A stretch of DNA of 64,000 nucleotides from Cytophagaceae bacterium (GTDB taxonomy: Bacteria > Bacteroidota > Bacteroidia > Cytophagales > Flexibacteraceae), in assembly GCA_947458545.1 (NCBI GenBank), contig CANGYH010000009.1, forward strand, positions 1 to 64,000. Reading direction: 5' to 3'. Of this stretch, positions 15,238 to 55,047 are shown piece by piece. Each line of letters opens with the position of its first letter. Position 1 is the stretch's first letter. Below the pieces are notes generated by a model. It was not told the origin of the DNA, ran no database searches, and was given only the letters and a program-made list of their open reading frames with translations. The translations under genes were made by a program, and so were the position numbers.

Positions 15238-16263
15238 ATGGGACTTTTCGATTTCTTTACCAGTGATATAGCCATTGATTTGGGTACAGCCAATACCCTC
15301 ATCATTCATAAAGATAAAATCGTGGTAGATGAGCCTAGCATCATCGCCATCAACCGCATCTCGGGCAAGGTCATGGCCATCGGCAACCAGGCCATGCAGA
15401 TGCACGAGAAAACCCACGACAACATCAAGACCATCCGCCCCCTCAAAGACGGTGTAATCGCCGACTTTACCGCTGCCGAGCAGATGATCCGGGGCATGAT
15501 CAAGATGATCCACAAGGGCACCAACCTCTTTGCGCCCAGCCACCGCATGGTGGTCTGCATCCCCTCCGGCATCACAGAGGTAGAAAAGCGCGCCGTTAAA
15601 GACAGTTGCGAGCACGCCGGTGCCAAAGAAGTCTATATGATCCACGAGCCGCTGGCCGCCGCCATCGGTATCGGTATAGACATCGAGCAGCCCGTGGGCT
15701 CTATGATTGTTGATATCGGCGGGGGTACGACAGAGATTGCCGTTATTGCCCTCTCTGGCATCGTGTGCGACCAGTCTATCCGCATTGCCGGAGACGTCTT
15801 CACCAAAGACATCCTCGACTACATGCGCCGCCAGCACAACCTGCTCATCGGCGAGCGCACGGCCGAGCGCATCAAAATCGAAGTTGGCGCCGCCATGACG
15901 GAGCTAGACGAGCCCCCGGCCGACTACGAGGTCCGCGGCCGAGACCTGATGACCGGCATCCCCAAAGTCATCAAAGTCACCTTCTCCGAGATTGCCTTCG
16001 CCCTCGACAAGTCCGTCGCCAAGATCGAAGAGGCCGTCCTGAAAGCCCTCGAGATCTCGCCCCCCGAGCTCTCGGCCGACATTTACGACAAAGGCATCCA
16101 CCTCACCGGTGGCGGCGCCCTCCTCCGCGGGCTAGACCGTCGCCTGCACATCCGCACCAAGCTCCCCATCCACGTAGCCGACGACCCCCTACGCGCCGTC
16201 GTAAAGGGCACCGGCATCGCGCTTAAAAACATCGAGCACTTTAAGTCGGTCTTGATGAGCTGA
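15238..16263 (+). CDS. mreB: Rod shape-determining protein MreB
   Basis: The 341-residue actin homologue polymerises under the inner membrane and guides lateral wall synthesis with MreC and MreD. Visible actin-family motifs are phosphate-1 'IAIDLGTANTLI' near residue 10, phosphate-2 'MIVDIGGGTTEIAVI' near 157, and adenosine 'IHLTGGGALLRGLDRRL' near 285. The N-terminal MGLFDFFTS supplies a short amphipathic membrane-binding helix, which supports ATG 15238. An in-frame upstream start at 15202 would add a Pro-rich tail and is rejected. mreC is the next core gene but is separated by the S23-type insertion element. Confidence 0.97.
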   Translation: MGLFDFFTSDIAIDLGTANTLIIHKDKIVVDEPSIIAINRISGKVMAIGNQAMQMHEKTHDNIKTIRPLKDGVIADFTAAEQMIRGMIKMIHKGTNLFAPSHRMVVCIPSGITEVEKRAVKDSCEHAGAKEVYMIHEPLAAAIGIGIDIEQPVGSMIVDIGGGTTEIAVIALSGIVCDQSIRIAGDVFTKDILDYMRRQHNLLIGERTAERIKIEVGAAMTELDEPPADYEVRGRDLMTGIPKVIKVTFSEIAFALDKSVAKIEEAVLKALEISPPELSADIYDKGIHLTGGGALLRGLDRRLHIRTKLPIHVADDPLRAVVKGTGIALKNIEHFKSVLMS

Positions 16264-16271
16264 GCCTTGCC

Positions 16272-16305
16272 GGAATTAAAAATTAAGAATTAAAAATTAA
16301 CAATT
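16272..16305 (+). repeat. Left inverted-repeat arm of the S23-type element
   Basis: Period-7 units AATTAAA, AATTAAG, AATTAAA, AATTAAC and AATT run up to the start codon of the enclosed ORF (ATG 16307). The arm is starkly AT-rich against GC-rich neighbours. Confidence 0.85.
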
Positions 16306-16306
16306 G

Positions 16307-16681
16307 ATGACAGCGGACAACGCTGTGCAAGCTAAGTCGTTCGCCTTTGCAGTTCGCTGCGTGAAGGTGGCTAAGGTATTGCAGCAACAGCGCAGTGAGT
16401 ATGTCCTAGCCAAGCAACTCATCCGGGCGGGAACGAGCATCGGAGCCAACATCGAGGAAGCCCTCGGTGGGCAAACCAGAAAAGACTTTGCCCACAAGCT
16501 GCAAATAGCCTACAAGGAGGCAAGGGAGGCACAGTACTGGCTTCGGTTGCTGGCTGCTACGCAATACCTAACGGCAGAAGAGGAAGCCAGCCTTTTGGCA
16601 GACATCAAGGAGCTTATTGCCTTGCTTACCTCTATCCTCAATACGCTTAAGCGTTCTGACCCATCCCCACCCAATTCTTAA
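16307..16681 (+). CDS. S23-type four-helix-bundle protein
   Basis: The 124-residue protein carries the signature of the S23 / 23S-rRNA intervening-sequence family, a homologue of the Avd accessory protein of diversity-generating retroelements. The signature segments are 'SFAFAVRCVKV', 'AKQLIRAGTSIGANIEEA', 'KDFAHKLQIAYKEARE' and 'YWLRLLAA', followed by a short polar tail. The family forms basic pentameric four-helix bundles whose cellular role is poorly defined. ATG 16307 is preferred to the overlapping TTG 16304. The ORF lies wholly between inverted repeat arms, and its stop codon TAA falls inside the right arm. No reverse transcriptase or variable repeat is nearby, so this is not a diversity-generating retroelement. 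Confidence 0.88.
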   Translation: MTADNAVQAKSFAFAVRCVKVAKVLQQQRSEYVLAKQLIRAGTSIGANIEEALGGQTRKDFAHKLQIAYKEAREAQYWLRLLAATQYLTAEEEASLLADIKELIALLTSILNTLKRSDPSPPNS

Positions 16682-16706
16682 TTTTTAATTCTTAATTTTT
16701 AATTCT
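16673..16706 (-). repeat. Right inverted-repeat arm of the S23-type element
   Basis: This is the inverted copy of the left arm with two mismatches in 34 nt. It contains the stop codon of the S23-type ORF and ends 2 nt before the GTG start of mreC, so the sequence immediately upstream of mreC is repeat-derived. Confidence 0.85.
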
Positions 16707-16708
16707 AA

Positions 16709-17554
16709 GTGGGTTCGCTCCTTGCGTTTTTGTTTCGTCTTCGCGCATTTGCGCTCTTGCTGCTGCTAGAGGGCCTATGCCTGGCGTTGATTACCCAGGC
16801 CAATACCTTTCAGCGGATACGGTTTACCAATACCAGCGATGCGGCCATTGCTCGGACATACGAGACCACCAGCCGCGTCAAAGGGTACTTCTACCTGGCA
16901 GACGTCAACAACGACCTTGCCGCCGAGAATGCCCAACTCAAGACCCAGCTAGAGCGCTACAAGGCCGTGGCCGACGCCCGCCTGGTAGATAGCCTGGCCC
17001 GAGACACCGGCCGCAACTACGATTATGTAGTGGCCAAGGTGGTAAACAACTCCGTCAACCGCGTCAACAACTATCTTACCATCAACCGGGGCACGGCCGA
17101 TGGCATCAGCGTGGGTATGGGCGTGGTGGGGCCAACGGGCGTAGTGGGCAAAGTGCGCACCTGCTCCGAGCATTTTGCCGTGGTAACCAGCCTGCTGCAC
17201 AGCAAGATGGTGACCTCGGCAGAGATATCACGCATCAAAGCCCAGGGCACCATCAAGTGGAAGGGCACCGGCCCCCGCTCAGCAACGTTGCTTTATGTGG
17301 CGCGCCACCTGAAGCCGGCCAAAGGGGATACGGTGGTGACCTCCTCGCTCTCGCCGGTGTTTCCGCAAGGCATTCTGGTGGGGCGCATCACGGGCGTCAA
17401 GATCAAAGACGACGATACCTTCTACACGCTGGACGTTGACCTTTCGACCAACTTCAGCACGCTAGAGTACGTCTACGTCGTCAAAAACGGGCTGCGGGCC
17501 GAGCAAGACAGCCTACAAGCCCGCGTGCCAGACCTTGTGCCAAGTGGCGACTAA
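16709..17554 (+). CDS. mreC: Rod shape-determining protein MreC
   Basis: This 281-residue bitopic protein has a short cytoplasmic N-terminus, one membrane helix (about 8-27, 'FALLLLLEGLCLALI'), a periplasmic coiled coil (about 65-90) and two beta domains with 'VNNYLTINRGTADGISVGMGVVG' and 'GDTVVTSSLSPVFPQGILVG'. It bridges MreB and the peptidoglycan synthases. The GTG start gives the usual 'GSLLAFLFRLRAF' N-terminus and lies directly beside the right arm of the inserted element. mreD follows after 68 nt. Confidence 0.95.
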   Translation: MGSLLAFLFRLRAFALLLLLEGLCLALITQANTFQRIRFTNTSDAAIARTYETTSRVKGYFYLADVNNDLAAENAQLKTQLERYKAVADARLVDSLARDTGRNYDYVVAKVVNNSVNRVNNYLTINRGTADGISVGMGVVGPTGVVGKVRTCSEHFAVVTSLLHSKMVTSAEISRIKAQGTIKWKGTGPRSATLLYVARHLKPAKGDTVVTSSLSPVFPQGILVGRITGVKIKDDDTFYTLDVDLSTNFSTLEYVYVVKNGLRAEQDSLQARVPDLVPSGD

Positions 17555-18232: not shown

Positions 18233-18694
18233 CTAGAAGGTTTCGCCCTCTCCCCTGTAGGGCCAGGGTTGTCCTTCTGTTACCAAGCCTGCGCGTACTG
18301 AGTTCAGAAACATGTAGTCTCGCACGGAGTGATAGTTGTCTGTTGATCTTAGTAGACGATCATGAAAGCGGGGTTGCCAAAGATTCGCAAGGTTTGTTAG
18401 GGTTCTAAGCCTTAATGCACTTTTCTGCTTCCAAACACCGGTGACTACAGAAAGAGAACTAGAATCCTCTCTACTTGGGGAAACCAATAGGTGGACATGG
18501 TCTGGCATGATGACATATGCGCCGAAAGTCCACCCATGTCTCTGGCCGGCTGCCGACCATTCCTCCTTGAGCACCGAGTGTGCAAGATCAGCAGCCAGCA
18601 CTGGCATACGCTCATAAGTACACGTCGTTAACAGGTAAACGGGGTCCTGAATCCAGATTTGGTCAAGTCTTCTCAGGTAGTTTCCCGATCTCAT
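18233..18694 (-). CDS. REP-associated tyrosine transposase (RAYT, TnpA_REP)
   Basis: The 153-residue protein has the Y1/IS200-like HUH nuclease fold: the metal-binding motif 'IMPDHVHLLVSP' near residue 62 and the C-terminal 'DYMFLNSVRAGLV', whose tyrosine is in the position of the RAYT catalytic residue. RAYTs nick and move REP hairpins and are single-copy, domesticated relatives of IS200/IS605 transposases. A REP-like palindrome (18726-18749) lies 31 nt upstream of its start, and two inverted copies follow at 18816-18873. The ORF appears intact. Confidence 0.9.
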   Translation of the reverse strand: MRSGNYLRRLDQIWIQDPVYLLTTCTYERMPVLAADLAHSVLKEEWSAAGQRHGWTFGAYVIMPDHVHLLVSPSREDSSSLSVVTGVWKQKSALRLRTLTNLANLWQPRFHDRLLRSTDNYHSVRDYMFLNSVRAGLVTEGQPWPYRGEGETF

Positions 18695-24177: not shown

Positions 24178-24630
24178 ATGCTAGACCGTGCCACGTTTGC
24201 AGAAGTAATAAAAAACACGCCCCTGATAGCCCTAGACCTGATTGTACGCGATGCCGAGGGCCGCGCCCTTGTGGGCCTGCGACGCAACCAACCGGCTAAA
24301 GGCTATTGGTTTACGCCCGGCGGCCGCATCTACAAAAACGAGCGGCTAGACGATGCCTTCCGCCGCATCAGCCGCCAAGAGCTGGGCGTGGCTCTGGAGC
24401 GCAGCCAGGCCCGGCTGCTGGGCCTCTACGAGCACATTTATGACGACAATGTCTTTAATGCTGACTTCGGCACCCACTACGTGGTGAACGGCTACGAGGT
24501 GCAGCTAGACGCCGCTCTGGTGCCCGAGGCCTTTGCCACCCAACACCACGACGCACGCTGGATGACCATCGAAGGCCTGCTGGCCAGCGCGGAGGTGCAT
24601 GAGAATACGAAGGCCTATTTTAGGAATTAG
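24178..24630 (+). CDS. gmm: GDP-mannose mannosyl hydrolase (Nudix)
   Basis: The 150-residue Nudix protein hydrolyses GDP-mannose or GDP-glucose to GDP and sugar. It follows the E. coli Gmm (NudD) pattern closely: 'TPLIALDLIVRD', the modified Nudix box 'GGRIYKNERLDDAFRRISRQELG', which lacks one of the usual glutamates as in Gmm, then 'YEHIYDDN', 'FGTHYVVNGYE' and 'HHDARWMT'. ATG 24178 matches the family N-terminus. The last codons and the TAG stop lie at the start of an AATTAAA-type heptamer repeat. Confidence 0.93.
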   Translation: MLDRATFAEVIKNTPLIALDLIVRDAEGRALVGLRRNQPAKGYWFTPGGRIYKNERLDDAFRRISRQELGVALERSQARLLGLYEHIYDDNVFNADFGTHYVVNGYEVQLDAALVPEAFATQHHDARWMTIEGLLASAEVHENTKAYFRN

Positions 24631-24658
24631 AAATTAAAAATTAAGAATTAAAAATTTA
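24624..24658 (+). repeat. Solo heptamer array of the AATTAAA type
   Basis: Units AATTAGA, AATTAAA, AATTAAG, AATTAAA and AATTTA keep the period of 7 and match the arms around the S23-type ORF. The first unit supplies the gmm stop codon. No inverted partner or ORF is attached. Confidence 0.8.
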
Positions 24659-26598: not shown

Positions 26599-26734
26599 TT
26601 TTTAGTGATTAGTTAAGAGTGAAAAGTTAAAAGTTGATTTTTTGCTCTTGGCTCCAGCCTTACTTGATTTTCTACGACTGACACGAAGCGCCCCGTCTGC
26701 TCAACTTTTAACTATTAACTCTTAACTTTTAACT
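26593..26734. repeat. Heptamer-phased inverted-repeat element between grpE and dnaJ
   Basis: The left arm (26593-26637) and right arm (26701-26734) are arrays of AGTTAAR-type heptamers in opposite orientation. Over the 34 nt next to the centre they agree at 29 positions. The 63-nt centre has no ORF. The layout copies that of the mreB-mreC element without the protein gene: the left arm supplies the grpE stop codon and the right arm ends 8 nt before the dnaJ ATG. Confidence 0.75.
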
Positions 26735-26742
26735 CCCCCATC

Positions 26743-55008: not shown

Positions 55009-55014
55009 GAGAAG

Positions 55015-55047
55015 AGTTGAGAGTTGAAAGTTGAGAGTTGAAAGTTG
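55015..55047 (+). repeat. Heptamer repeat (AGTTGAG/AGTTGAA alternating)
   Basis: Units AGTTGAG, AGTTGAA, AGTTGAG, AGTTGAA and AGTTG keep an exact period of 7. It adjoins a family i double hairpin, as the array at 13962 does. Confidence 0.8.

Follow-up and report, generated by a model that had tools for sequence, protein, structure and literature searches.

The window, i.e., the whole stretch of 64,000 nucleotides that was analysed, carries an intact S23 (four-helix-bundle) gene between mreB and mreC. The S23 gene occupies positions 16307–16681 of the plus strand, and translation of the open reading frame gave a product of 124 aa. The upstream neighbour is mreB (15241–16263, plus strand; PF06723, E 1.5e-126), and the downstream neighbour is mreC (16709–17554, plus strand, GTG start; PF04085, E 4.4e-38; NF010532). 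The S23 gene is enclosed by two arms, which were located by an inverted-repeat search and by TRF. The 5' arm (16273–16306, plus strand) is an array of GAATTAA/AAATTAA heptamers, and the 3' arm (16672–16705, minus strand) is the same array in inverted orientation. Each arm is 34 nt in length, with 33/34 positions complementary (97%) and 365 nt between the arms. TRF described both arms as period-7 and period-14 arrays (16274–16305 and 16673–16706). The ATG at 16307 abuts the 5' arm, and the stop codon falls within the 3' arm. The end of mreB at 16263 is separated from the 5' arm by 9 nt, and the 3' arm is separated from the GTG of mreC at 16709 by 3 nt. The preliminary description had claimed an intact four-helix-bundle gene within inverted, heptamer-phased arms at this junction. 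The intact gene, the inversion, the period of seven and the location all stood; its count of 32/34 matching positions gave way to 33/34, and its spacing of 8 and 2 nt holds if slightly wider ends are drawn. The flank-pair score of the window was 31.5, whereas 5,240 mismatched flank pairs scored 22 at most (99th percentile 13.5), and 0/200 dinucleotide shuffles reached the observed score. The inverted-arm S23 unit at mreB–mreC was hence confirmed as real.

The product of the gene belongs to the S23/IVP family, as its matches to PF05635 (E 4.7e-27; 94.5–94.7 bits, curated cut-off 33.8) and to TIGR02436, "four helix bundle protein" (E 1.6e-30; 105.5 bits, cut-off 24), both exceeded the curated cut-offs. 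The protein resembles the solved four-helix bundles 2RLD (E 3.6e-29) and 2GSC (E 2.5e-6), the crystal structures of which consist of five chains each. The predicted pI of the S23 domain was 9.3, and the median among 132 S23 loci was 8.7. S23 is the sole gene of the unit, and no transposase, the mark of an insertion sequence, is encoded there. The complementary ends around an S23 open reading frame are those of a 23S rRNA intervening sequence (IVS), but the unit stands between mreB and mreC and not inside a 23S rRNA gene.

The mreB–mreC junction was compared in relatives. The mreC gene was found in 37 of 39 genomes, the present one included, and the 30 loci retrieved comprised 29 from other genomes. 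Among the latter, mreB was readable directly upstream of mreC in 24, and five were unreadable. S23 was absent from all 24 readable junctions, where the gap measured 4–160 nt and was therefore too short for an S23 gene. The empty sites for which the preliminary description had proposed to look were thus present throughout, and the opposite outcome, a gene fixed at this place in all relatives, was absent. Arrays of the dialect class of the window occurred in 0/29 of the relatives' mreC loci. Inspection by eye found inverted heptamer hairpins of other dialects, without an S23 gene, at the mreB–mreC junction of three relatives (L063, L066 and L073).

A profile search of the contigs gave exactly two PF05635 matches in the genome to which the window belongs. 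The second S23 gene, on contig C1, has inverted arms of 36 nt at 94%, extending up to 46 nt at 85%, and its heptamers (GAGTTGA/AAGTTGA) are unlike those of the window (GAATTAA/AAATTAA). The other S23 gene of the genome is therefore also bounded by heptamer arrays, as the preliminary description had asked. Since the readable junctions were empty and the second gene was armed, neither of the two outcomes that spoke against the earlier reading was found. Genes of the GxxExxY family (PF13366), which had been considered as further carriers of such ends, were absent from this genome in the profile search.

Heptamer arrays that lack an S23 gene were more numerous than S23 units in this genome according to the pattern search, for which the reversed heptamer pattern was uninformative as a control of array counts because it is nearly the identical periodic pattern. 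Three such features lie within the window. A solo array at 24625–24656 (plus strand; TRF) has the AATTAAA dialect of the window unit, and another at 55013–55047 (plus strand; TRF) has the AGTTGA dialect of the second S23 unit. A small inverted pair of AGTTAAA-type arrays at 26624–26735 (TRF and pattern search; no strand assigned) lies directly 5' of a gene beginning MAAKRDYYE, which we take to be dnaJ-like. The small inverted pairs of the genome were considered as deletion copies of one element, and this was rejected as their interiors looked unrelated by eye. On contig C1, a stretch of 1.13 Mb (C1:145728–1277350) had no match to either heptamer pattern among the matches listed (for one pattern 100 of 158 places, a listing that extends beyond C1), unlike the rest of C1 and the contigs listed after it, in which matches were many. 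Solo AGTTGA-type arrays adjoined a recurrent CAAAGGTCGGG / CCTTTGC stretch in L114, L118, L119, L120, L122 and L124, and this stretch presumably resembles the -7 promoter box of Bacteroidota. Because S23-less arrays outnumber the units and the small pairs enclose unrelated sequence, arrays can exist or spread without an S23 gene. One alternative is that the arrays form a repeat family of their own, with the S23 gene as a passenger caught between two of them. The many arrays beside only two S23 genes, the unrelated interiors of the small pairs and the S23-less hairpins of the three relatives favour this explanation, which is weighed below with the heptamer sequences.

The genome was also searched for enzymes that might move such a unit. 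Eight Y1_Tnp matches were obtained, and one of them, a RAYT-like gene at 18233–18694 (minus strand; Y1_Tnp profile match), lies just beyond the mre genes. No heptamer arms of the searched pattern were found around this gene. The eight matches are in keeping with a Y1 (RAYT-like) transposase that mobilises the unit in trans, as with REP sequences. However, the arms of S23 units are arrays rather than single palindromes, and Y1_Tnp had 0 matches in four S23-rich genomes, i.e., G067 and G236 with nine S23 genes each and G221 and G252 with seven each. A role of Y1 enzymes is thus very improbable. Retrotransposition with a reverse transcriptase was considered as well, with S23 acting like Avd of diversity-generating retroelements, because passages of PMC10053308 describe Avd as related to the S23 family. 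RVT_1 gave no match in the present genome and was lacking in 14/20 genomes tested, this one included, so that such a route is scarcely to be expected.

The generality of the arms was evaluated in several sets of loci. PF05635 was found in 232/296 genomes of a phylum sample, often in multiple copies. The two S23 genes of the present genome and 130 of the best matches listed gave 132 loci, a choice that favours typical family members, and 131 remained once L085, which contains a run of N, had been left out. The arms had a shuffle p < 0.01 in 88/131 loci and p < 0.05 in 101/131, and 43/131 fell short of p < 0.01. The 99th percentile of mismatched flank pairs was exceeded in 78/131 loci, whereas the same-direction flank control exceeded it in 13/131. 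The 30 loci closest to the window protein, with the window counted among them, included 27 that passed at p < 0.01. A species scan (one genome per species, best 80 matches listed, L292 skipped) gave arms in 73/79 loci, namely, 39/45 in Bacteroidota and 34/34 among those not labelled Bacteroidota; phyla were read from record titles, and the latter group includes two unplaced records. Arms were present in 14/14 IMG/VR viral contigs, of which L348/L349 and L355/L356 look like duplicates. The arm test was positive in 0/29 mreC flanks and in 6/260 shifted pseudo-genes within the same loci, which served as controls. Inverted heptamer arms around S23 genes are a general pattern across many bacterial phyla. 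The longest arms of the set by far, exceeding 130 nt, were observed in L296 and contained a second interspersed word.

The period and sequence of the repeat were analysed in 157 loci (45 phylum-sample sites, 27 near homologues with L234 at p 0.02, and 85 scan loci). With periods of 5 to 10 tried, the strongest tandem period in both flanks was 7 in 145/157 loci, 8 in 11 and 9 in one. The heptamer unit varied by locus. In the clade of the window, the mean profile was ANNAATT, with ACGAATT as the commonest unit, and the profile was alike in Bacteroidota and other phyla. Heptamer similarity was correlated with S23 protein identity (Mantel rho 0.54 for 145 period-7 loci and 10,440 pairs; reached in 0/300 permutations), the values being computed without correction for shared ancestry. 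The correlation was 0.50 for the 5,481 pairs with differing host labels (0/300 permutations), where the label denotes the phylum from the record title, virus or unplaced. Mean heptamer similarity rose from 0.46 below 30% protein identity to 0.65 above 60%. Between sites of the phylum sample, rho was 0.24 (0/500 permutations). This variation of the heptamer with the S23 protein would be compatible with binding of the heptamers by the protein.

Genome-wide solo arrays were compared with the heptamers of resident units for two heptamers in 30 genomes. AATGTAG arrays occurred in 2/30 genomes, with 31 matches in G376 and five in G029, and the S23 unit of G376 carries the AATGTAG heptamer. AATTACG arrays occurred in 14/30 genomes and were more numerous in the seven genomes with a related-heptamer unit (Mann–Whitney p 5e-4; grouping by eye). 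The passenger explanation does not account well for arms that are inverted and abut the gene, for a heptamer that tracks the S23 lineage even across differently labelled hosts, or for AATGTAG arrays that are abundant only where the S23 unit uses this heptamer. We therefore consider it improbable that the S23 gene was caught between arrays that spread independently.

The orientation of the units relative to their neighbours was also determined, with the neighbour direction taken from the longest open frame beside the unit. With one locus per site in the phylum sample, both neighbours were in the sense direction at 47/61 clear sites and both antisense at five. Between co-directional neighbours, the ratio of sense to antisense was 54:3 in the species scan and 20:3 among the near homologues, whereas the viral contigs had no sense bias (three sense versus five antisense). 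In pairs of S23 genes at the same site, the orientation agreed in 220/222 and was flipped in two. The dN/dS of same-site S23 proteins had a median of 0.15 and a maximum of 0.56, with none at or above 1, in 93 non-independent pairs from 14 sites; by this measure, the S23 protein is under purifying selection. At shared sites, the two own arms fitted each other better than the arm of another species in 56/62 loci, which were chosen for good arms.

An RNA element of the IVS type would also have complementary arms. According to this explanation, the two arms base-pair within the transcript of the operon, cleavage of this stem by RNase III removes the S23 RNA from between the messages, and the arms are kept for the RNA stem. 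In the predicted fold of the window RNA, the arms form a long stem (z -6.7), and the sense bias of the units agrees with this proposal. Moreover, passages of PMC4990558 describe an IVS of Coxiella burnetii with an S23 open reading frame that is preceded by GACAGAT heptamer repeats; the terminal stem of this IVS, 28 bp in length, is cleaved in vitro by RNase III. However, of the mismatches between the arms, 176 preserve G.U pairing in the sense RNA and 218 are of the A.C type, and the RNA-stem explanation lost ground because no G.U excess was found in this wobble test. The likeness of the arms also came mainly from the shared heptamer, as the mean score was 20.0 with the real unit order and still 18.5 after shuffling of that order. 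The real order beat the shuffled order in 91 loci and lost in 37 (p 1e-7), and single loci reached p ≤ 0.05 in 4/134. It is thus unlikely that the arms are maintained for an RNA stem.

The presence and absence of units were examined at fixed sites. In one genus, a unit between groES and groEL was present in 5/30 nearest genomes (gap 521–614 nt) and absent in 25 (58–132 nt), and it replaced nearly the whole gap. The five unit-bearing genomes need five changes on the groEL tree, in which L403 (with the unit) and L402 (without it) are sisters with a support of 100/98. By eye, right-arm-like mini hairpins were seen before groEL in L378, L379 and L390, either without S23 or in tandem beside the S23 unit. 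In Nostoc plasmids, the unit of L360 matched those of L357–L359 with 87.6–87.8% DNA identity over 418 nt, i.e., the S23 gene and its immediate edges, and the neighbours were different. The L357–L359 unit stands inside a DNA cytosine methyltransferase gene, which is whole in L371–L373, and the site measures 456–470 nt in the former and 332 nt in the latter. The heptamer counts were equal in both arms of L357–L360 (4/4, 4/4, 3/3 and 2/2). In L360:2380–2960, the two arms appeared by eye to share a further repeat in mirror image, as if copied from arm to arm. In two other plasmids, a unit lies between cas2 and cas1, and these two genes are adjacent in L368 and L369. In the Planktothrix plasmids L361–L363, the S23 unit has drmD on one side and an MmeI/PglX-type methyltransferase gene on the other.

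When 108 proteins of the clade were placed on a tree, the host labels needed 25 changes, compared with a minimum of 17 and a value of 32.6 for shuffled labels, which suggests that the clade is partly mixed between phyla. No clean target-site duplications were seen in the plasmid and groES–groEL alignments, where the compared units replace host sequence. These replacements also fit recombination through the flanking genes, and some of the spread may be ordinary recombination of this kind. As far as these alignments can be read, S23 units come and go at fixed sites. The repeat-bounded mobile unit suggested by the preliminary description gained support from the empty mreB–mreC sites, the second armed gene and the arms around most S23 genes tested elsewhere, and the S23 unit is very probably mobile.

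The assignment to a mobile class rests on comparisons of sequence, i.e., on the anatomy and generality of the units, their presence and absence, the recurrence of one unit at a second, unrelated site, the preference for the sense orientation, the purifying selection and the covariation of heptamer and protein. DNA binding by S23 and movement by host enzymes are what we infer beyond this. Since the routes through an RNA stem, a Y1 transposase or a reverse transcriptase were without support, recognition of the arrays as DNA by the basic protein remains. The explanation that we favour, and consider rather probable, is a mobile element whose protein recognises the heptamer arrays as DNA ends and which relies on host enzymes. 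The unit would consist of one S23 gene between inverted arrays of the heptamer belonging to that S23 lineage. It would settle, mostly in the sense direction, where two co-directional genes leave a short gap, and S23 could there be transcribed along with the host operon without a promoter of its own. S23, a small basic four-helix bundle with five-chain relatives, may then bind both heptamer arrays in the form of DNA, much as transposon end-binding or iteron proteins act on arrays of sites, and the bounded segment would be copied or moved by enzymes of host replication or recombination.

A wider and more tentative possibility is a large class of mobile elements without a transposase, in which S23 proteins act as sequence-specific specificity factors. 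Each lineage might read its own heptamer (ANNAATT in the clade of the window), and the arrays might have two uses, bounding the S23 gene as its ends and offering sites for docking or writing at other places in the genome. The rRNA intervening sequences would then represent the special case of entry into 23S rRNA genes. S23 or "four helix bundle" genes, which are scattered in many genomes, have no settled role, and separate reports of heptamer arrays between genes give no mechanism. The union of an S23 gene and its own heptamer ends in one unit gives a context to both. Furthermore, the function of S23 becomes directly testable, namely, by asking whether S23 binds its heptamer. The rRNA intervening sequences are placed in a wider frame. 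The question also arises by what means such a unit spreads when it has no known transposase.

The literature search, in titles and the openings of abstracts, gave no paper in which S23 genes and heptamer arrays are treated together as one element. Arrays of TAACTGA in Beggiatoaceae, cyanobacteria and Bacteroidetes were reported by MacGregor (2015, PMC4679880), in the text of which "S23" has 0 occurrences. Passages of that article describe short intergenic arrays of one heptamer with a patchy distribution across phyla, as here, but as direct repeats with a possible regulatory role. REP/REPIN sequences with RAYT resemble the S23 units in being small, dispersed inverted units between genes, whereas S23 units are heptamer arrays around a gene and several S23-rich genomes are without a Y1 transposase. 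Diversity-generating retroelements share a related four-helix-bundle protein, Avd, according to passages of PMC10053308, but the present genome is without a reverse transcriptase (RVT_1). Insertion sequences and MITEs are likewise bounded units with inverted ends and presence or absence at sites; unlike them, the S23 unit has no transposase gene, its ends are tandem arrays, and no clean target duplication was seen. The closest known system is the 23S rRNA intervening sequence, for which transposition was suggested earlier (passages of PMC4990558). Both have an S23 open reading frame, a length of about 0.43 kb and complementary ends, and the Coxiella IVS also has heptameric direct repeats, as passages of the same article describe. 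In contrast, the S23 units stand between protein genes, both of their arms are heptamer arrays, many heptamers follow the protein, and there is no sign of selection for RNA pairing. The S23 units were rated as new because the defining place of an IVS in rRNA is not theirs and no described mobile class has such ends. Heptamer-ended S23 units appear to be a class of mobile DNA that has been overlooked and in which no transposition enzyme can be recognised.
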